A program made the translations under genes and the position numbers. The notes beneath the pieces are model-generated. The model ran no database searches. It was not told the DNA's origin and saw only the letters and a program-made list of their open reading frames with translations. From Limnohabitans sp. Jir61 (GTDB taxonomy: Bacteria; Pseudomonadota; Gammaproteobacteria; Burkholderiales; Burkholderiaceae_C), in assembly GCF_003063545.1 (NCBI RefSeq), contig NZ_NESD01000002.1, positions 558,001 through 622,000 of the forward strand: DNA of 64,000 nucleotides, given 5' to 3'. This document shows positions 24,475 to 38,477 of this stretch, in pieces (the first letter of the stretch is position 1; each line of letters starts with the position of its first letter).

Positions 24475-25035
24475 TCAGTGCGACACACCATCACGTTGAA
24501 TTACCTTCAGAAAGGTCATCCATAGAATCTTGATGTCAAACAAGAAGCTTTGACGCTCCAAGTACTCAGCATCAAATGCCACCTTATGCGGGATGGGCAG
24601 TTCATCGCGTCCATTTACTTGAGCCCAACCTGTCAAACCTGGCACCAAGGTGTGCACGCAGTTTAGTGTTCGCAGATCAATCAATTCTTTTTGATTAAAT
24701 AAGGCAGGCCTTGGACCCACAAAGCTCATGTCGCCAATCAAAATACTCCACAGTTGCGGCAATTCGTCCAGGCTGCTTTTGCGTAAAAAGGAACCAATGG
24801 GTGTGAGGTGCTGCTTAGGATTGTTGAGTAAGTGTGTGGCCACTGCAGGTGTGCCGTCTTTCATGCTACGAAACTTCGGCATTTTGAAGATCACATTGTT
24901 TCGACCAATCCGGTCAGACCAATACAGCACCGGGCCATTAGAAGTCAAACGAATAAGCAATGCAACGACAAGCATAGGAATTAATGTAGATAAACCTACA
25001 AAGACAACTAGCAGCAAGTCGAATAACCGTTTCAT
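24475..25035 (-). CDS. Small monotopic phosphoglycosyl transferase (PglC/WbaP C-terminal type)
   Basis: MKRLFDLLL, SDRIGRNNVIFKMPKFRSM, LRKSSLDELPQLWSILIGDMSFVGPRP. Confidence 0.93.
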   Translation of the reverse strand: MKRLFDLLLVVFVGLSTLIPMLVVALLIRLTSNGPVLYWSDRIGRNNVIFKMPKFRSMKDGTPAVATHLLNNPKQHLTPIGSFLRKSSLDELPQLWSILIGDMSFVGPRPALFNQKELIDLRTLNCVHTLVPGLTGWAQVNGRDELPIPHKVAFDAEYLERQSFLFDIKILWMTFLKVIQRDGVSH

Positions 25036-25078: not shown

Positions 25079-26251
25079 TTAACTTCTTTTAGTATTTAAT
25101 TTATTAGCATAGAAAGTCGACATTGCTTGCACAACAAGCGTTTGCGGGTAAAGCATCATCACCCGCTTTCGCGCAGCTACACCTAACTTAATCCGCATCT
25201 CACGATCAGCCGCAATTTTTTGAAGCTTGGCAGCAAGATCAGTAATATTTTTTTGCTCGTGCAACATACCTGTTTCTCCGTCCACCACAACTTCTGTCAC
25301 ACCGTAAATACGTGACGCAACCGCAGGTAAACTCATTGAAGCAGACTCAAGCAATGTCACATTTAATCCCTCCCTATGGCTTGGCAAGCAAAAAATATCA
25401 CTTGCTGCCATGAAATGCTGGGGTGTTTGCGTTACTCCAACTACCCGATGAACACGTCCTGGAAATTTGATTGCCACTTCTGACACTCGCTCTTCCAGAC
25501 TATCTTCATCCTGCCCCACCACCATTAGGAACACGGAGGGGTCAGACTTAGCAACCAGATTAAAAGCAGAACAAAGATCTTCTACCCCTTTATCTCGCTT
25601 GAGACGCCCCAAGTATAAAACCACAACCCCCTCTTGTGGTATCTGAAAACGACTTCTAAGCGCCTTCCGCATTGTCTCATTAGGTGAAAATCGCGTCGTA
25701 TCAACACCACAGATCGATCCATTAGCCAACACTTTGATCCTTCCCGCACTTGAAATGCCTTCATGCACCAAGAAATCAACTTGTTCATGACCATCTGCAA
25801 GCAAATCAGTTGCCGCCCAAATAAGGATCTTGTCTAATTGTTTGAGTAACCACCGAATAATACCGGTCTTACTCACCCAGACCTGCCCCGTGAAGGTATG
25901 CACCCTAACAGGCACCCCCGCGAAGCGAGCAGCAATCATTGAAAGCAATCCCGCCTTGGGTGTCAGCGAATGAACACAATCGAACTTGTGCTTATGAAAA
26001 ATAGTAATTAGCTTGATAAGCGCTAGAAAGTCTCTCCAAGGAGAAATATCGCGCTCAATGTTCAGCGGTTGAAATGCGACTTGCTTTGATAGCACCCCCC
26101 CCAACTCCGAGGCATCACCACGTGCAACCAGCGTTATGACGTAAGTTTTTGACAATTCTAAAACATGCGGTGACATAAAAAAAATCAGACTGTTTGTAAT
26201 TGTTGAAACAAAACAAATTTTTTTATGGTTATTATTTATCTGCATCATCAT
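25079..26251 (-). CDS. GT4 glycosyltransferase
   Basis: LANGSICGVDTTRF, LGRLKRDKGVEDL, SHREGLNVTLLESASMSLPAVAS; start probably at one of the MMM codons near 26245-26251. Confidence 0.9.
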   Translation of the reverse strand: MMMQINNNHKKICFVSTITNSLIFFMSPHVLELSKTYVITLVARGDASELGGVLSKQVAFQPLNIERDISPWRDFLALIKLITIFHKHKFDCVHSLTPKAGLLSMIAARFAGVPVRVHTFTGQVWVSKTGIIRWLLKQLDKILIWAATDLLADGHEQVDFLVHEGISSAGRIKVLANGSICGVDTTRFSPNETMRKALRSRFQIPQEGVVVLYLGRLKRDKGVEDLCSAFNLVAKSDPSVFLMVVGQDEDSLEERVSEVAIKFPGRVHRVVGVTQTPQHFMAASDIFCLPSHREGLNVTLLESASMSLPAVASRIYGVTEVVVDGETGMLHEQKNITDLAAKLQKIAADREMRIKLGVAARKRVMMLYPQTLVVQAMSTFYANKLNTKRS

Positions 26252-27023
26252 TACCTTTTCTGCGCTGTGAAAAAAACCAACGTTTTGCACACGTTAGCAA
26301 AGCAGACACCAGCCAACGGGGATCCCCCCCTCGAACGAAGTTAGACCATTGTGCCCCTGCGACGACGGCATAAGCAACTGCAGAACGTCTAGCTATACCG
26401 CCAGCTTCAGCTCGATATCCTAGGAGAACCTCAGGAATATTTGCAAATTTAATATCTACAGTATTCATTAAACGCAACCATAAATCGTAGTCCTCCGCAT
26501 ATAGGCCACCTAAATACCCGCCAGCCTGCGCGACGATTTCGCGTCGAAACATTACAGTCGGGTGACACAGAGGGTTGCGTAAAAATAAAGCACGTCGAAT
26601 AAATTCATTTTCAGTTGGTAGCCGCACAGTTTCGAATGGAATATCATTTATATCGATCATCGAATACCAAGAGCCACATACTGCAATTTCAGGATTGCTC
26701 TCCATAAATTCAAACTGCGTTGATAGTCTATTAGGATAAGAAATATCATCCGCATCCATGCGAGCGATGTACTTTGCACTCGCAAAGTCCAACCCCAAGT
26801 TTAAAGAATGATTTAAATAAGATACACTCGAATTAATAATTTTGATCTGATCGTACGGTAATAGTGTATCTTTAACCAAATCCAACGAGAGTGACGCCTC
26901 ACCATTCAAGACAATAATTATTTCATAATTATTTTTGAAATCCTGCTGCAAAACTGAGTTAATTGCTCGATAGAAAAAACAGTCTACCCGATTAGTGCAG
27001 ATAAGTATGGATACTTCAATCAA
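26232..27023 (-). CDS. GT2 glycosyltransferase
   Basis: VSILICTNRVDCFFYRAINSVLQQDF, ARMDADDISYPNRL. Confidence 0.92.
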   Translation of the reverse strand: MIEVSILICTNRVDCFFYRAINSVLQQDFKNNYEIIIVLNGEASLSLDLVKDTLLPYDQIKIINSSVSYLNHSLNLGLDFASAKYIARMDADDISYPNRLSTQFEFMESNPEIAVCGSWYSMIDINDIPFETVRLPTENEFIRRALFLRNPLCHPTVMFRREIVAQAGGYLGGLYAEDYDLWLRLMNTVDIKFANIPEVLLGYRAEAGGIARRSAVAYAVVAGAQWSNFVRGGDPRWLVSALLTCAKRWFFSQRRKGNDDADK

Positions 27024-27045: not shown

Positions 27046-28410
27046 TTATTTACCCTGATAAGCATGATGAGAATGCCAACTTTTATACAAATCAATCAAT
27101 GCAGCAAAACCGAAACATAAAATTAGCATCCACCAAGTGTATCTATAACGATAGAGTGCGCCCAAATACGGAACAGCAACACCATAAACAGCCATCATTG
27201 ATACTGACAAACCAACAGGGATTATAATTAATGCATCCCTTTTGCGCCCGCCCCACAAAATTAAGGCAATCATGCCCATATAAAAAAATAGTGCCTCAAA
27301 AGGAACAATAGTATAAAAAAGAGATATTTCATTTTTAAAATTATAGAACCAATGATCTGGCCAAGGTGAAAAAACTCCAATTAATGCACCGCGAGGAATA
27401 TATTCAAGTCCTTCAATAGTGGTTTTTGGGAAAATATTTGTATCTGTAAACGAGTATATTGTTGCCAAATTTCTCTGTCCTTCTAAAGTAGAAAAGATTA
27501 GACAACGATTAGCCATCAATGCTTTTATTTTTTTATTTACAATTGAAGGCATAAATTCAGCATCGTGCCAAACGCTCGCGTCTATAAATGAAAGACATTG
27601 CACATAAATCTTCTCAGACTTGTGTGATTGCATTGAAGCATCTGCATAGTTATCAAATCCATTTAACGTGCTGTCTGAAACTGCCCCAGTTCCTAAAGCA
27701 GAACACGTAACAATGAGAACAGATGCATAGGACAAAAAACGAATTAATATCCATGGCTTAAGCCCTGTTGATGCGCAATAAACACTCCTTATCAAAAACA
27801 CAATAGATATTATTGGAAGTAATATTTGATTGACGTACGGGCGCATTAAAAAAATTAAGAAAAGTCCAGACACCGCCATTACTAATGATTGAAGCCCGCT
27901 CTTACCCGATATGTCATCTTTCGCAGATTCATACAATTTTACGAAACCATAAACAAATAAAACCCCTCCAGTTATAACAAAACTTTCCTTATTAATTTGT
28001 GAAAACCAAACAATCATGTATGGAGATATTGCTAGAGGTAAAGACGCTATTATAGATGTATGTAATGTAAACCACATGCGAAGTAGCAAAACAATCACTG
28101 CTACTGATGTAGCATGTAGCAAGGCATTAACCAATACTATTGAATAGATATTATCATAAATTAAGAATAGCAAAGCAGCAACGCCGGAAATTCCTTGCCC
28201 TTCTGGACGAAGCTCATATGCATTGAAACCATTAGTGTTTATGGCTGTAAGGATTTTTTGAGCTAAAACTAAATAATACTGCGGATCGCCACCGATGTTT
28301 CCATTTGTCGACAATGGCATTAAAGCAACTAAGTACTCGCGTATAAAATACATAGCAGAAAATGCATATGCGAAAACACAAAAAAACAACTTAGCAACTA
28401 TTCTTTTCAT
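27046..28410 (-). CDS. Polytopic membrane protein, Wzy-like polymerase or GT-C glycosyltransferase candidate
   Basis: Many hydrophobic segments; GDPQYYLVLAQKI in the first external loop; position in O-antigen cluster. Confidence 0.6.
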   Translation of the reverse strand: MKRIVAKLFFCVFAYAFSAMYFIREYLVALMPLSTNGNIGGDPQYYLVLAQKILTAINTNGFNAYELRPEGQGISGVAALLFLIYDNIYSIVLVNALLHATSVAVIVLLLRMWFTLHTSIIASLPLAISPYMIVWFSQINKESFVITGGVLFVYGFVKLYESAKDDISGKSGLQSLVMAVSGLFLIFLMRPYVNQILLPIISIVFLIRSVYCASTGLKPWILIRFLSYASVLIVTCSALGTGAVSDSTLNGFDNYADASMQSHKSEKIYVQCLSFIDASVWHDAEFMPSIVNKKIKALMANRCLIFSTLEGQRNLATIYSFTDTNIFPKTTIEGLEYIPRGALIGVFSPWPDHWFYNFKNEISLFYTIVPFEALFFYMGMIALILWGGRKRDALIIIPVGLSVSMMAVYGVAVPYLGALYRYRYTWWMLILCFGFAALIDLYKSWHSHHAYQGK

Positions 28411-28429: not shown

Positions 28430-29818
28430 TTATAGTTTTTTTACTAAATGATCGGCCATTCTTAGTGACAAAGCAGCAATTGTAAGTCCGGTATTGGCAT
28501 AACCACTTGCAGGTATGAGTGATCCATCGCAAACATATAAATTATCAATACCGTGAACTTTACCGTTTTCATTGCAAACGCCTTGACTTGGTGAAACATG
28601 CATTCTTGCTGTTCCTGAGTGATGTGATGATGATTGAAGATCATTATTCCAGCAAGGAAATACGTGTGCGTTTAAAAGCTTGCCCCCAAGTTTATTGATC
28701 ACTTGATTAATAGCTTTCTGCAGGACATCGGTATAAGATTTATCCAATTTCCAATTGCGGAAAATCAACCGTCTTTCGTTATCTGTCCACACGCTACGAA
28801 CAGCTTCTGTCGGTTGTTCTGCCACCATTAGTAATGTGTAATGGCGAGTTGGGAGGTGAATACCAAATTTAAAGGATAGCACATCAAGAAAATCATCCCA
28901 GTGTGAAAGTATTCGAAAATAATTACGTATTTTATAGGGCTGATTTCTCAAATCGCTAAGCACACTAGAAACTTTGTTTCGTGGCCGAAATTGCACTGCC
29001 GGCCTAAGCTGAAAAGATACAAGTAATCCATCCTGCGACACAACCATTGGCAGCCGCAAAGTACCTTTTCCACCGAGTACTTGAAAATTCCATAATTTAT
29101 AGATCGGAGCATCAAGCGTCACTTCAGCGACAAACCCTGTTGGATGATCCTCATAATTAAAACCCGCCAAGTCTGAGCCACTGTAATTTTTCACATCATT
29201 TAGTTTCTGAAGCAAAAGTGGAGTACTCAAACCACCAGCGGCAATTACAAAAATATCACCTTCAATAAGAAATTCACCATTCGCGCAAGACAGCTTTAAC
29301 TGGCGTATTTTAAAAGATGAATCCACAGTAAAATCCGTAACCTCACCCTTTATTAATTTTACTCTGCTTTTAAGTTTGAATTTTTTCCATACATTTATCC
29401 TTCGACTAGGATAATACAGCCCCTGATGCAATAAATTTTCTGGTATACCATTAGCTATAAGTTTACTCCGCAAAGCCTGAGTTGCATCCATAACAGCATG
29501 CCGAGAAACCCCTGATAGCTTATTAAAAGCAGCATCATAATAATCACTCAATTCAGTTTTACTAAATGGCCATTTCTTTGCAAAGATCTCGTCTTCAATC
29601 TCAATTAGACCGTTATGCCAAACAGTCGTCGAGCCACCTAGCCCAGAACCGACATGTGGGTAGGTGATGGCCGCCTTTCCAATATCCTTAATTCGCGACT
29701 GCAACTGTGTTGATCGCGACCCTAGCTCAACAACAGTAACATCCCAAATTTCAGCTAGCGCATCAGCCAAAAAACAACCACCAAGACCCGCACCAACTAT
29801 CACCAGTCTTGGCATCAA
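28430..29818 (-). CDS. FAD-dependent GMC-family oxidoreductase
   Basis: N-terminal VIVGAGLGGCFLADAL; C-terminal GMC signature HHSGTARMHVSPSQGVCNENGKVHGIDNLYVCDGSLIPASGYANTGLTIAALSLRMADHL. Confidence 0.85.
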   Translation of the reverse strand: MMPRLVIVGAGLGGCFLADALAEIWDVTVVELGSRSTQLQSRIKDIGKAAITYPHVGSGLGGSTTVWHNGLIEIEDEIFAKKWPFSKTELSDYYDAAFNKLSGVSRHAVMDATQALRSKLIANGIPENLLHQGLYYPSRRINVWKKFKLKSRVKLIKGEVTDFTVDSSFKIRQLKLSCANGEFLIEGDIFVIAAGGLSTPLLLQKLNDVKNYSGSDLAGFNYEDHPTGFVAEVTLDAPIYKLWNFQVLGGKGTLRLPMVVSQDGLLVSFQLRPAVQFRPRNKVSSVLSDLRNQPYKIRNYFRILSHWDDFLDVLSFKFGIHLPTRHYTLLMVAEQPTEAVRSVWTDNERRLIFRNWKLDKSYTDVLQKAINQVINKLGGKLLNAHVFPCWNNDLQSSSHHSGTARMHVSPSQGVCNENGKVHGIDNLYVCDGSLIPASGYANTGLTIAALSLRMADHLVKKL

Positions 29819-30792
29819 GATCTCCTTTTGAATTTTATTACATGCTCTTCGTGTGGCGCTAAAGGTATATGATCTTTAAATACACTTGTATCTATCATCA
29901 TCCCATTATTCCATTGCTCTAACAAAAATAGAGCAGATACACTACCACTTAGATTTTGTATCTCATTTTGTACTCTGTTGATCGGCAAATTAAGAATTTT
30001 GCTTTCCCTAAAACAAACTCCAACACGCTGTGTCATTAGATCATTAAATGTTTTTAGGGCGACCTCGTAACTATTTGGAGCTTTAAATTTTGAAATTCGA
30101 CTCAAAACACGCACTTCTGCCGTTGAAAGAATATGCCCATCAACCGACCATGGATCTGACCACTCGCAACCCCGCTCAAACCATGCAAACATAAGTAAAT
30201 CCGGAGAGATTTCACTTTGAAAAAAATTTGGAGGTAATTGACTTACATTCGCTGTATAACTTCGTCGAAGATTCGGACTGTGTCGCAGACTAAGAGTTGT
30301 GTGTCGCGAATCTAGATTTGCCACAATACTCAAATCAAATGGGCGGATAAAAACAATATCATCGACCAAAAAGAAAATCGAGGTGACTTTCACATTATCC
30401 AAAACAGATAATAGACTAGTGCGAAAATTATGAGATTCATTAACGAAAGTGACTGTTACAGATCTATTGAAAAATATTTCCTCAACCTCACGATAGGCTT
30501 TCTCATGTTCGTCGCTACTAACAGCGTAAATCACGAAGACTGGAACTGGATTTTTCACGCAAATGAAATAGGTATTCAATAAAGCGTGGAGTTGTAGCGC
30601 TCGATCCTTGCTGAACACCACACAAACAAGCCCTTGCTCCAACTTGCAGCATTCAATTTCGACCAATTCTTTAACAGCACATGCTCGCTGGATCAGTATT
30701 TGTTTATAAATAATATTTGACAGTAGTGTACCGCCAAAATAAGCAGCAAATTTACGAGAAAGTTTAACAACGGCAGTACGAAAAAAATTCAT
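29815..30792 (-). CDS. Uncharacterised GT-A-like protein (putative glycosyltransferase)
   Basis: VVFSKDRALQLHALLNTY, DxD-like FFLVDDIVFIRPFD; 4-nt overlap with GMC oxidoreductase gene. Confidence 0.6.
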   Translation of the reverse strand: MNFFRTAVVKLSRKFAAYFGGTLLSNIIYKQILIQRACAVKELVEIECCKLEQGLVCVVFSKDRALQLHALLNTYFICVKNPVPVFVIYAVSSDEHEKAYREVEEIFFNRSVTVTFVNESHNFRTSLLSVLDNVKVTSIFFLVDDIVFIRPFDLSIVANLDSRHTTLSLRHSPNLRRSYTANVSQLPPNFFQSEISPDLLMFAWFERGCEWSDPWSVDGHILSTAEVRVLSRISKFKAPNSYEVALKTFNDLMTQRVGVCFRESKILNLPINRVQNEIQNLSGSVSALFLLEQWNNGMMIDTSVFKDHIPLAPHEEHVIKFKRRS

Positions 30793-30885
30793 TACAAAAA
30801 CTTCATTTAATTAAATTACAATAAATATTTGCAAAAAATATTAGGCACTAGGATTTTGCAAATTAATTTTTTCAAACACCTAAAT

Positions 30886-31557
30886 TTACAATCCAAGCTT
30901 ATTCATAAGCCGATTAAGAAACCTACGAATAGGCGTTTTATTTTTAATAAATGATACCGACGGAAGAAGTCTATCGATTTCGCTAGTTTTTTCAATAAAA
31001 AAAGGCCGATCAAATTCAACACCCTCAAAAAAAAGCTTTTTATTGGTTGCGCAGATATCATCCCAACCAAATTCGAGTGTTTTATGAAAGAATAAGGCTA
31101 CAGCAGAAAACTCATTGAAGTTAGTTTCAAATTTGGGCAGATATCTCAACACATTCCGTTCGAAATCAAACTTAACGAAATTTAAATGAACATCGAAGTC
31201 GTATAAATATTCGTAAGTGATCAAGGGATATTCCAGATATCCACGTCCAGAAGACACTCTAAATAACTCACCTAGGAAATAAACTGGATCAGGAACATGC
31301 TCAATTACGTGAGAGCAAATTACATAATCGAATTGATTATTTTCAAAAGGAAACCCCCCCCCATCATAATAATAGACAGGTCGGCCATTGAAATTAGCTT
31401 CGTTAACAATTCCGCCACGCTGAGAAATTTTATCTTGAACCGTATCAAAATTAAGCTCAAGAAATGCATTGCTTCTGGGATGAGGCGAGGCGCCCGGCCC
31501 GATTTCAAGTACCTTATCTTTAGGACGAATTGAATTTACTCTTTCAGGAAAAAACAT
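30886..31557 (-). CDS. Class I SAM-dependent methyltransferase
   Basis: VLEIGPGASPHPRSNAFLELNFD, DYVICSHVIEHVPDP; start at MFFPERVN immediately after upstream stop. Confidence 0.85.
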   Translation of the reverse strand: MFFPERVNSIRPKDKVLEIGPGASPHPRSNAFLELNFDTVQDKISQRGGIVNEANFNGRPVYYYDGGGFPFENNQFDYVICSHVIEHVPDPVYFLGELFRVSSGRGYLEYPLITYEYLYDFDVHLNFVKFDFERNVLRYLPKFETNFNEFSAVALFFHKTLEFGWDDICATNKKLFFEGVEFDRPFFIEKTSEIDRLLPSVSFIKNKTPIRRFLNRLMNKLGL

Positions 31558-31558
31558 T

Positions 31559-32278
31559 TCAATCCTCTTGACGCTTGATAGCAATGCAGTGCCAGCCAAA
31601 ACAAGCAACATCCGATGCTGATTGAGATTTGCCACGTAACATGAAATATACAAAAGCAACACCAGCAACTAGATAAGCCAACGGCCAGCACCTGTCACCA
31701 TAGCGCTTCGCCATTACTGGCAGCCTTAGGATTTCTTGCTTAGCATAAGAGAACCAATCACCGTTTGAAGTCAACTCTTGAATCTCAAAACTTCGTGATG
31801 GAAGATGATATTCATACCAGTAGCGGCTATATCCGGTTGCGTAATGATAGGGGGCAAAATGAACTAAAGATGCAAAAGGAGCGGTAATAATCAGTTTGCC
31901 GCCTGGTTTGAGAAGGCGCCGAAATTCATCCAAGGCCTTGAGCGCGCAAGGCAAATGCTCAAATACCTCGCTGCACAGAATTACATCAAATGAGGCGTCT
32001 GATTCTGGAATATTCACAATATCACAGACCAAGTCAATCTTGCTGGTGTCCCAAGCACCAGTTTGCAAACCCAGTTCGTCCCCAATACCCTCATATTGAC
32101 ACACATCTTGCGAAACATTGGCAAGATGGTTGCATAGTGGTTTATTCCTTAGCTCACCCGCCCCTGCGTCAAGTATGCGTGCACCTGCCGGGATGGCTGC
32201 CAGTGTCTGCTCAAGCCACTTATTGCGCATGTCTTCATTGATGCTAAGTCCCGCGACTTTCCTTACTATTTTTATCAT
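31559..32278 (-). CDS. Class I SAM-dependent methyltransferase
   Basis: RILDAGAGELRNKPLCNHL, FDVILCSEVFEHLPCALKALDEFRRLLKPGGKLIITAPF. Confidence 0.9.
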   Translation of the reverse strand: MIKIVRKVAGLSINEDMRNKWLEQTLAAIPAGARILDAGAGELRNKPLCNHLANVSQDVCQYEGIGDELGLQTGAWDTSKIDLVCDIVNIPESDASFDVILCSEVFEHLPCALKALDEFRRLLKPGGKLIITAPFASLVHFAPYHYATGYSRYWYEYHLPSRSFEIQELTSNGDWFSYAKQEILRLPVMAKRYGDRCWPLAYLVAGVAFVYFMLRGKSQSASDVACFGWHCIAIKRQED

Positions 32279-32288
32279 TTATGCTGTC

Positions 32289-33065
32289 TCATTCTTTGAT
32301 AAATGTAAATATACCTAATGCATAACGCAACTTGGACAAGTCCGTCATATCCTGCTTAGGATTTGAGGCATGCACAAGCGTACGACTTGGATCTACCCAA
32401 GAAAACTTACTTAGTACTAGTCCATGAACTGCGGCAAGCTTCACCAAAGAAAGTGGATCAAATATTCGATGTGCATTAAATTCCACGCGCTCCTGACCAA
32501 TAGGAACAGAAAGATAAAATACTCCTCCACGCTTCAGTATCTTAGCCATGTTACCCAATCCGGCCACATATCCATTAGGGTCTATCGGATCACCATAACG
32601 ACCCAAACCGAAATGCTCTAAAGCATGTAAACAGGATAGAGAATCACAATACTCAATAAGCGAATCTTCTGGACTCATAAGATTTGCCTGCCTAAATATG
32701 ACCCCCTGAATTTTAGAGGTAATAGGGCGAATATCAAATACTTCTATATCTCTGAAGCTAGCCACATGCGCGACAAAACCATCAATGCGAGAACCGACAT
32801 CCACATGCTTAATAGGATTTGCATAATTAATCTCTTTAGCCACATACAGATCCTGCCAAAAATACTCATCCTTGGTGGATCCACCTTCGTCATACCAATC
32901 AAACAAACAAGGACGGAACTTGAGATTCCCCTTGTAATTCTTACGAAAACGAATCCATCCAACTATGTAGCGCGGAATACCTCTGCATGACCTCACCATT
33001 CGCCTAGGATCAAAGCCGAACTGCGCACTGACAATCCAATAAATTTTCTTAATTATTTCATTCAT
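32289..33065 (-). CDS. DUF268-like protein (methyltransferase-fold)
   Basis: HVDVGSRIDGFVAHVASF, LSCLHALEHFGLGRYGDPIDPNGY, KRGGVFYLSVPIGQERVEFNAHRIFDP. Confidence 0.75.
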   Translation of the reverse strand: MNEIIKKIYWIVSAQFGFDPRRMVRSCRGIPRYIVGWIRFRKNYKGNLKFRPCLFDWYDEGGSTKDEYFWQDLYVAKEINYANPIKHVDVGSRIDGFVAHVASFRDIEVFDIRPITSKIQGVIFRQANLMSPEDSLIEYCDSLSCLHALEHFGLGRYGDPIDPNGYVAGLGNMAKILKRGGVFYLSVPIGQERVEFNAHRIFDPLSLVKLAAVHGLVLSKFSWVDPSRTLVHASNPKQDMTDLSKLRYALGIFTFIKE

Positions 33066-34329
33066 CTGTTTTTTTTAGCCATTCTAAGCTGATTAAAAGT
33101 CCAATAAAATTGATCGACAACCACCCAAAGGTTGCGCCGATTGGCCCTTGCCACGCGACAAGGGGCGGGATCAAAAGAACTGAGAGCACCAGAGCTAGAG
33201 TATTTACTAGAAGCATCCGGTGAATTCTTTTCTTCACAATCCAGTTCAAATATCCAACATTGTAAAGGTAGTTGCAGCAGGTGCCCACCAGCAAGACAGT
33301 CAGCAATGGATAGATTACCTCTGCCGCCTGCGGGTTTCTTAGCCAAATAGTAAGCAACCATTTACCGACAAGTAGAAAAATCACGATTACCAAGCTAGTC
33401 ATTACCAAAATAAATATCGACAACTTAACGTAAAGCGCACGCAAAGCAATAGGCGCTGCTCTCAATAGAATCGCACGTGGCATTACCGCTTGAACCAAGG
33501 GGCCAATCAATTGCAACAGTCCCGCTGCGACTGTAGCGGCGACAGTGTAATAACCAAATTGTTCAATACTCACCATCCGACTAAGAATGATCTTGTCCAT
33601 TTGTACTGTAAGTGCACCAAGCAACGCAACCCCTGACATGCTTGCAATCACTCGCCACACCTCTTGAAACTCTTGTTTATCCCATATAACCTGTCCGCGC
33701 TTTACACCCAGAACTCTCCACGCAAGATTGCACCGTATCAATGTTTCCAGAAGTGCAGCGCATGCATGCCAAATGATATACGCAGAAAATGTTGGCCATA
33801 AAAATACAACGATTACGCCGCCGAAATGCCTTATCAAGGTTCCACCCGAAATAACAGCATTCAGAGCAACTTGCGCCTGAGCCCCGACCAGCAAACTGCG
33901 ATAGATTGACCCTGGAAACTGGGCTGCAAAGATGGCGGCTGCTCCATAAATTGCATTCCTACCAGTTGCAACTGGCAGCCCTTCTAAATTTAACCAATGG
34001 CTTGCAAAAGTGTCAGCAAACACCGCCCCGCCCACACCCACAAAAAACGCAATGCCCCAGTATATTCGTTCGAAACCAAAAAGCAGCGACGCAGCTCTGT
34101 CTCGCCCCTGATCAGTGGCGTTAAAACGAAGAGAAATCTCACGCACCAGTGCTTGACCCATGCCAGCATCCAGCATACCAAGGACCGCTTGCAACATTGC
34201 AATAAATCCGATCAAGCCAAACTGCTTGGAGCCGAGCTCCGAAAGATACCAAGGTAAAGCAAGAATTGGCGCCAACACTGCGACACCTGTTCCGATGTAA
34301 TTCGCAATAATATTTCTTTTAATTGACAT
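33058..34329 (-). CDS. Oligosaccharide flippase, Wzx-like
   Basis: Multi-TM; MSIKRNIIANYIGTGVAVLAPILALPWYLSELGSKQFGLIGFI, polysaccharide synthase family start. Confidence 0.85.
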   Translation of the reverse strand: MSIKRNIIANYIGTGVAVLAPILALPWYLSELGSKQFGLIGFIAMLQAVLGMLDAGMGQALVREISLRFNATDQGRDRAASLLFGFERIYWGIAFFVGVGGAVFADTFASHWLNLEGLPVATGRNAIYGAAAIFAAQFPGSIYRSLLVGAQAQVALNAVISGGTLIRHFGGVIVVFLWPTFSAYIIWHACAALLETLIRCNLAWRVLGVKRGQVIWDKQEFQEVWRVIASMSGVALLGALTVQMDKIILSRMVSIEQFGYYTVAATVAAGLLQLIGPLVQAVMPRAILLRAAPIALRALYVKLSIFILVMTSLVIVIFLLVGKWLLTIWLRNPQAAEVIYPLLTVLLVGTCCNYLYNVGYLNWIVKKRIHRMLLVNTLALVLSVLLIPPLVAWQGPIGATFGWLSINFIGLLISLEWLKKTDE

Positions 34330-34974: not shown

Positions 34975-35450
34975 AGTGTCGGGTTGGTGACATGCCAGTT
35001 TTAAACTGACCGCCACTGCTTCCTCATCCAACTGAGCGCCGAAGCTATCAACCACGTACAGGGTAATCGCTTGTTTGTTTTTATGTGGCAACAGCAACAT
35101 CTCCTGCGGGATGAGTTCGATTTTGAAACTCTGACGAAAAACCTTCCTTACCCCCAAAGGTCTTCAGACGCACACCTGCAGCGGCGAGTGCGTCCATTTC
35201 TTTTTAAAGGTAATAAACAAACAGCTCCATTAAGGTGAACACCTCGCCTACAGGGCGGCCCCAGTTTTGTCACTGCGGAAAAAGTGCGTAATGCTCTTAA
35301 TACCTATCTTGGCGCAATGCTCAACTAGCGCTTTAAGCCCGCCCAGCCCTCAGCATGCCCCACAGGGCGAGGCATTTGACGCGCTTCCGCCCAACAACTA
35401 TTTCCTTCTATGATGATGATGATGATGATGATGGCAATATGTTGAGGCCA
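34975..35450 (-). pseudogene. Degenerate undecaprenyl-diphosphate synthase (uppS relic)
   Basis: Collinear nucleotide similarity to the intact uppS at 37695-38477 (e.g. AGCATGCCCCACAGGGCGAGGCATTTGACGCGCTTCCGCCCAAC vs GGCATGCCCCACAGTTCTGGGCATGTGTCGCTTTTGCGCCCAAC; CGCACACCTGCAGCGGCGAG...TCCATTTCTTTTT vs CGTACGCCCGCAGCAGCCAAG...TCCATTTCTTTTT; peptide AITLYVVDSFGAQLD vs [15 protein letters not shown]); frameshifts and stops. Confidence 0.82.
35410..35433. repeat. (ATG)8 trinucleotide microsatellite inside uppS relic
   Basis: Direct reading; the aligned site in intact uppS has three ATG units. Confidence 0.95.
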
Positions 35451-37694: not shown

Positions 37695-38477
37695 TCAATG
37701 ACTCACCTTGCCAAAGCGTCGTTCACGCGTTTTATACCAATGCAGCGCCTTGCTGATTTCAGCCTCATCAAATTCAGGCCACAGTGCATCAGAAAAATAC
37801 AACTCAGCATAGGCGGATTGCCACAACAAGAAGTTGCTGATGCGCTGCTCACCGCCTGTTCGGATGAGCAAATCTACATCAGGCATACCCTCTGTGCTGA
37901 GGTGCTGAGCCAATGCATCTTGCGACAGCTGTGACACATGCAGAGAAGGGTTGGCTTGCTGCCAGTTTTTGACGGCTTGAACTATGTCCCACTGACCGCC
38001 GTAGTTGGCAGCCACTGTTAAGGTGATGGCGTGGTTATGGGCTGTGGCCTCTTCTGTCGATTGGATTCGAGCTTGTAACTCAGCAGGAAAAGCCGAAATA
38101 TCGCCAATGACTTTGAGGCGTACGCCCGCAGCAGCCAAGCTTTCCATTTCTTTTTCGAGGTACTGCACAAACAACCCCATCAGTGTGGACACTTCGTCTT
38201 CAGGTCGTTTCCAGTTTTCGGTACTGAATGCAAACAAGGTGAGGTAGGGAATGCCTTGCTTGGCACAGAACTCCACCAAACTGCGAACGCCGGCAGCGCC
38301 TTTGGCATGCCCCACAGTTCTGGGCATGTGTCGCTTTTGCGCCCAACGCCCATTACCGTCCATGATGATGGCAATGTGCTCAGGTAAATTGGAAGAGTTA
38401 AATGTCACTAGATCAGAGCAAAAGTGGCGCAGACACGCTACCGCTTTTCGCGCTTTAGCAAAGTCTTCAATTATCAA
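37695..38477 (-). CDS. uppS: Undecaprenyl-diphosphate synthase-like cis-prenyltransferase
   Basis: [56 protein letters not shown]. Confidence 0.93.

Follow-up and report, generated by a model that had tools for sequence, protein, structure and literature searches.

An unusual, conserved sub-operon is present in the O-antigen cluster of Limnohabitans sp. Jir61, in which the gene of a GMC-superfamily flavoenzyme adjoins that of a GT-A-fold protein and genes for methyltransferase-like proteins. It was analysed within a window of 64,000 nucleotides of the genome (contig NZ_NESD01000002.1, positions 558,001 to 622,000); all positions given here are those of the window. The sub-operon is real. Its gene content, reading frames, synteny in three genomes, folds and intact catalytic residues were observed directly. 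It brings known folds into a new combination and is not categorically new, and its chemistry is putative. Since the set of genes for DUF268, a methyltransferase (MT1), the GT-A protein and the GMC enzyme is found also in two other, distant bacteria, it probably represents a real, putative route by which a coat sugar would be oxidised and methylated.

The five open reading frames span 28430-33065, as placed in the earlier note, and all are on the minus strand (Table 1). The core block is low in G+C (35-47%) compared with its flanks (~52-55%). To one side of the block lie rmlABCD and genes for a Wzy_C protein (ligase/polymerase), a WbpM/CapD-like protein, a sugar-phosphate transferase, GT4 and GT2 glycosyltransferases and a membrane protein; to the other lie genes for Wzx, gmd, fcl, uppS and manC. 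The O-antigen setting proposed in the earlier note is borne out by rml, Wzx, the WbpM/CapD-like protein, the sugar-phosphate transferase, gmd/fcl and manC. Polysacc_synt, Bac_transf, rml, gmd, fcl and manC are all found, as in a Wzx/Wzy-type cluster, with Wzy as a candidate only, either the Wzy_C gene or the 27046-28410 protein. The latter is very AT-rich and has no family, its PMT_2 match being below cut-off. As the rml and gmd/fcl families are present, dTDP-rhamnose and GDP-fucose are likely donors. The only full-length copy of uppS (undecaprenyl diphosphate synthase) found in the genome is located inside the O-antigen cluster (37695-38477). A broken uppS remnant with 67.5% DNA identity over 234 bp and one stop is seen at the cluster edge (~35193-35447) and is perhaps a recombination scar.

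Table 1. Genes of the sub-operon and its immediate neighbours, with the evidence for each assignment
Feature	Position	Strand	Evidence
GMC-superfamily FAD oxidoreductase, 461 aa	28430..29815	-	Pfam PF05199 62.8 bits; GAGLGG 8-13, HHSGTARM 398-405, Asn441
GT-A-fold glycosyltransferase-like protein, 325 aa, FFLVDDIVF motif	29815..30792	-	AF2 model + Foldseek
Class I SAM methyltransferase MT2	30886..31557	-	Methyltransf_11 33.1 bits
Class I SAM methyltransferase MT1	31559..32278	-	Methyltransf_23; Methyltransf_11 47.1 bits
DUF268 protein, methyltransferase-like	32289..33065	-	DUF268 61.2 bits
Wzx-type flippase (polysaccharide biosynthesis protein)	33058..34329	-	Polysacc_synt 34.5 bits
Multi-pass membrane protein, candidate O-antigen polymerase or GT-C	27046..28410	-	8 hydropathy segments
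GT2 glycosyltransferase	26232..27023	-	Glycos_transf_2; 47% in L004, directly after GMC
GT4 glycosyltransferase	25079..26290	-	Glycos_transf_1; 39% in L004, same order
Polyprenyl-phosphate sugar-phosphate transferase (PGT)	24475..25035	-	Bac_transf 190.7 bits; 69% in L004

The GMC enzyme, the two SAM methyltransferases and the DUF268 protein, all named in the earlier note, each score above the respective Pfam cut-off (24.6 for GMC_oxred_C, 21.2 for Methyltransf_11 and 25 for DUF268). A 4-nt overlap between the GMC and GT genes had also been described. Such an overlap needs a TTG start; the GMC start is ATG 29815, preceded by a Shine-Dalgarno sequence (AGGAG-atcttg-ATG), which gives TGATG and an overlap of 1 nt. 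The start of MT2 is ATG 31557 and not TTG 31668; MT2 therefore does not overlap MT1.

The FAD-binding and catalytic residues of the GMC enzyme are intact. H398, H399 and N441 do not vary across 16 relatives, the GxGxxG motif (G8 to G13) and E30 at the end of strand 2 vary little or not at all, and the spacing of 43 residues between H398 and N441 is that of other GMC enzymes. In a Foldseek search with the AF2 model (pLDDT 85.5), the closest folds were the large subunits of fructose and glucose dehydrogenases, pyranose 2-oxidases and C-glycoside oxidases, the whole chain matching fructose dehydrogenase with a probability of 1.00 and a TM-score of ~0.6; TM-scores of this order were obtained against solved GMC enzymes in general. 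A match to GMC_oxred_N is absent up to E = 1, even though the model as a whole agrees with GMC structures. The GMC sugar oxidoreductases (fructose dehydrogenase large subunit, FAD-glucose dehydrogenase, bacterial pyranose 2-oxidase/C-glycoside oxidase), which are the best matches in both sequence and structure, thus have the fold, the FAD motif and the catalytic His/Asn pair in common with the window enzyme. The latter is only ~16% identical to them, ~80 residues shorter and, unlike them, has no secreted gamma or cytochrome partner among the annotated neighbour genes and is encoded in a glycan-assembly locus. The mycofactocin GMC enzyme MftG was rejected as an assignment, the NCBIfam equivalog score being 39 bits against a cut-off of 400. 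No PHROGs family was found for the GMC, GT-like or DUF268 protein.

No family in Pfam, NCBIfam or PHROGs fits the GT-like protein convincingly, and searches of PDB sequences with its profile gave chance matches; the fold search alone settled its assignment. Its AlphaFold model (mean pLDDT 92.9) has GT-A enzymes as best Foldseek matches, GnT-I and SpsA first, and nearly all of the top 50 hits are GT-A glycosyltransferases, the few others being related nucleotidyltransferases. An acidic metal-binding motif of the DxD type, D144-D145, is invariant in 32 relatives. GnT-I (GT13) and SpsA (GT2) share with the protein the GT-A fold and an acidic D-D at the end of the same type of strand, at an identity of ~10-12%. 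The GT-A-like assignment made from the sequence is thereby upheld by the model, and sugar transfer is its predicted activity.

Within the DUF268 protein, Methyltransf_23 also matches, at 17.5 bits and below its cut-off. Identification of this protein as a 2-O-methylfucose methyltransferase was considered, as gmd/fcl are present and DUF268 genes occur in C. elegans glycosylation clusters; it is not claimed here, the worm enzyme being still unidentified (PMC7614267).

The conservation of the set was followed through 16 relatives of the GMC enzyme (15 and one more, in L052). In an Undibacterium MAG (L004), eight genes are collinear with the window, DUF268-MT1-GT-A-GMC-GT2-GT4-PGT-WbpM-like, with neither MT2 nor the membrane protein gene in the cluster, and the identities of the first four are 70, 68, 58 and 57%. 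In L052 (genome G543) the order is GT2-DUF268-MT1-GT-A-GMC, running to near the contig end, and the identities are 36% for DUF268, 37% for MT1, 59% for GT-A and 63% for GMC. MT2 has no clear counterpart beside MT1 in L004 or L052, the weak matches falling onto the MT1 gene. The start-stop overlap between GT-A and GMC is kept in all three loci, and their GMC enzymes form one clade (support 85/84). As GT-A and GMC are far better conserved in L052 than the methyltransferases, the GT-A/GMC pair is the tightest unit. The earlier note had named failure of the GMC-GT pair to recur elsewhere as grounds against its proposal; the pair is kept in two other genomes, and the proposal stands on this point.

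The GMC subfamily is rare. It was found in 2 of 399 genomes of the order, both with an adjoining GT-A gene, and was absent from 36 searched genomes of the same genus, where the matches were confined to the C-terminal part of ordinary GMC proteins (~530 aa). No further copies were detected in a search of 400 genomes of the phylum or in the family of G543, and viral contigs carry no relatives of the window GMC. The plasmid collections (72,556 plasmids for GMC) contain relatives of neither the GMC enzyme nor the GT-like protein. Such a patchy distribution, together with the low G+C, points to acquisition by horizontal transfer, and in our best reading the sub-operon has spread horizontally.

With moderate confidence, we propose that the GT-A protein, of an uncurated family, and the GMC enzyme act consecutively in the O-antigen sub-operon, with methylation by the neighbouring products and export by Wzx. 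The GT-A enzyme would extend the undecaprenyl-linked oligosaccharide by a residue. Through its FAD, the GMC enzyme would next oxidise a hydroxyl to a ketone or aldehyde, either on the added residue or on the donor of that residue; a glycan as the substrate, the order of the steps and the position oxidised are what we infer. DUF268, MT1 and, in the window only, MT2 may add methyl groups to hydroxyls of the same repeat unit or at its end, presumably as O- rather than C-methylation, and Wzx would then export the finished unit. This reading is supported by the nearest GMC folds, which oxidise sugars, and the divergence of the methyltransferases in L052 beside a conserved pair argues that GT-A and GMC act together. 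It is weakened by the missing GMC_oxred_N match, by the TM-scores and by the association of methyltransferases with GT-A also where GMC is absent.

The wider GMC subfamily has other partners. Relatives at ~50% identity (47-51%), mostly from Burkholderiales (Massilia, Roseateles, Rubrivivax and relatives, within L005-L018), belong to SDR-GMC-GT4 sets in exopolysaccharide loci that have no GT-A, DUF268 or MT1. GT4 is directly downstream of GMC in all 13 of these other loci, and an SDR (NAD epimerase/dehydratase) is directly upstream in 11 of the 13, several with an ATGA-type overlap; one relative outside these 13 loci, L016 (from an alphaproteobacterial MAG), has an SDR-like gene downstream. Several of the 13 are exosortase-A/PEP-CTERM loci, with exosortase A in L008 and an exosortase-A-associated ligase, decarboxylase and hydrolase in L018; an exosortase-A-associated amidotransferase match in L010 is partial and below cut-off. 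Owing to this SDR pairing, the main rival is a two-step epimerisation, in which oxidation by GMC yields a keto sugar and an SDR then reduces it to the epimer, giving an O-antigen with a rare epimer and no keto group. The pairing resembles DprE1/DprE2 of mycobacteria, where flavin oxidation is followed by SDR reduction, although DprE1 belongs to the VAO family and not to GMC, and it weakens our reading, as it points to epimerisation and not to a retained keto group. The three O-antigen loci, however, have no SDR partner: the sister-locus SDR has no dedicated homologue in the window (best match rmlB, 26%), and GT-A occupies the slot directly before GMC. For these loci we therefore regard epimerisation as unlikely. 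Since the wider subfamily usually occurs with SDR and GT4 and without the window methyltransferases, these are not obligate partners of the oxidase; the oxidation followed by methylation, or terminal capping, put forward in the earlier note is a possible reading, and the association of GT-A with methyltransferase genes across many loci is supported.

That association could also mean that DUF268, MT1 and GT-A are the functional unit, methylating and perhaps capping the chain, with GMC as an accessory that does something else, such as acting on a different residue. GT-A relatives without GMC adjoin DUF268 in L053, L055 and L056, and adjoin or are fused to an MT1-like domain in L042 and L054, twice as multidomain or overlapping frames; a ninth GT-A locus (L041/L020) has other methyltransferase-like neighbours, one of them FkbM-like by eye. 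This alternative appears rather improbable against the ~60% identity of GT-A/GMC versus ~37% of the methyltransferases in L052 and the overlap kept in all three O-antigen loci. In L055 and L056 the GT-A relative forms the N-terminal domain of multi-glycosyltransferase proteins of great length, that of L055 having 1749 aa. L055 also has a flagellin gene close by and may therefore be an island for flagellin glycosylation. GT-A relatives are encoded in at least 119 stretches of viral contigs; in 80 such loci (L057-L136), DUF268 is near GT-A in 6, and matches to fcl and gmd are seen in 27 and 8. It is very improbable that the GMC enzyme is a passenger from alcohol metabolism and plays no part in the O-antigen. 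Many GMC enzymes do act on non-sugar alcohols, which counts against the sugar reading, and a second, ordinary GMC gene is present elsewhere in the genome; but the subfamily members inspected in detail, except L016, stand among glycosyltransferase genes, GT-A being directly upstream in 3/3 O-antigen loci and GT4 directly downstream in 13/13 others, and the 72,556 plasmids searched carry none.

The GMC sets recur in different polysaccharide loci, which makes the enzyme a recurring component of polysaccharide assembly whose partners differ by locus. More tentatively, a dedicated GMC subfamily may oxidise sugars in the cytoplasm, with the new GT-A family in O-antigen loci (where the keto or uronic sugar would be retained and then methylated) and with an SDR in exopolysaccharide loci (epimerisation). 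Within a limited open-access coverage, the literature yielded nothing on GMC enzymes in O-antigen synthesis or in connection with LPS, polysaccharide or exosortase. The GT-A family beside GMC is widespread, viral contigs included, yet none of the libraries searched contains a curated family for it. Oxidised and keto sugars of bacterial polysaccharides normally arise from NAD-dependent enzymes acting on nucleotide sugars. A GMC enzyme acting in O-antigen or exopolysaccharide assembly would, if true, be a different route to keto, uronic and epimerised sugars, and would provide a genetic handle to predict such residues.
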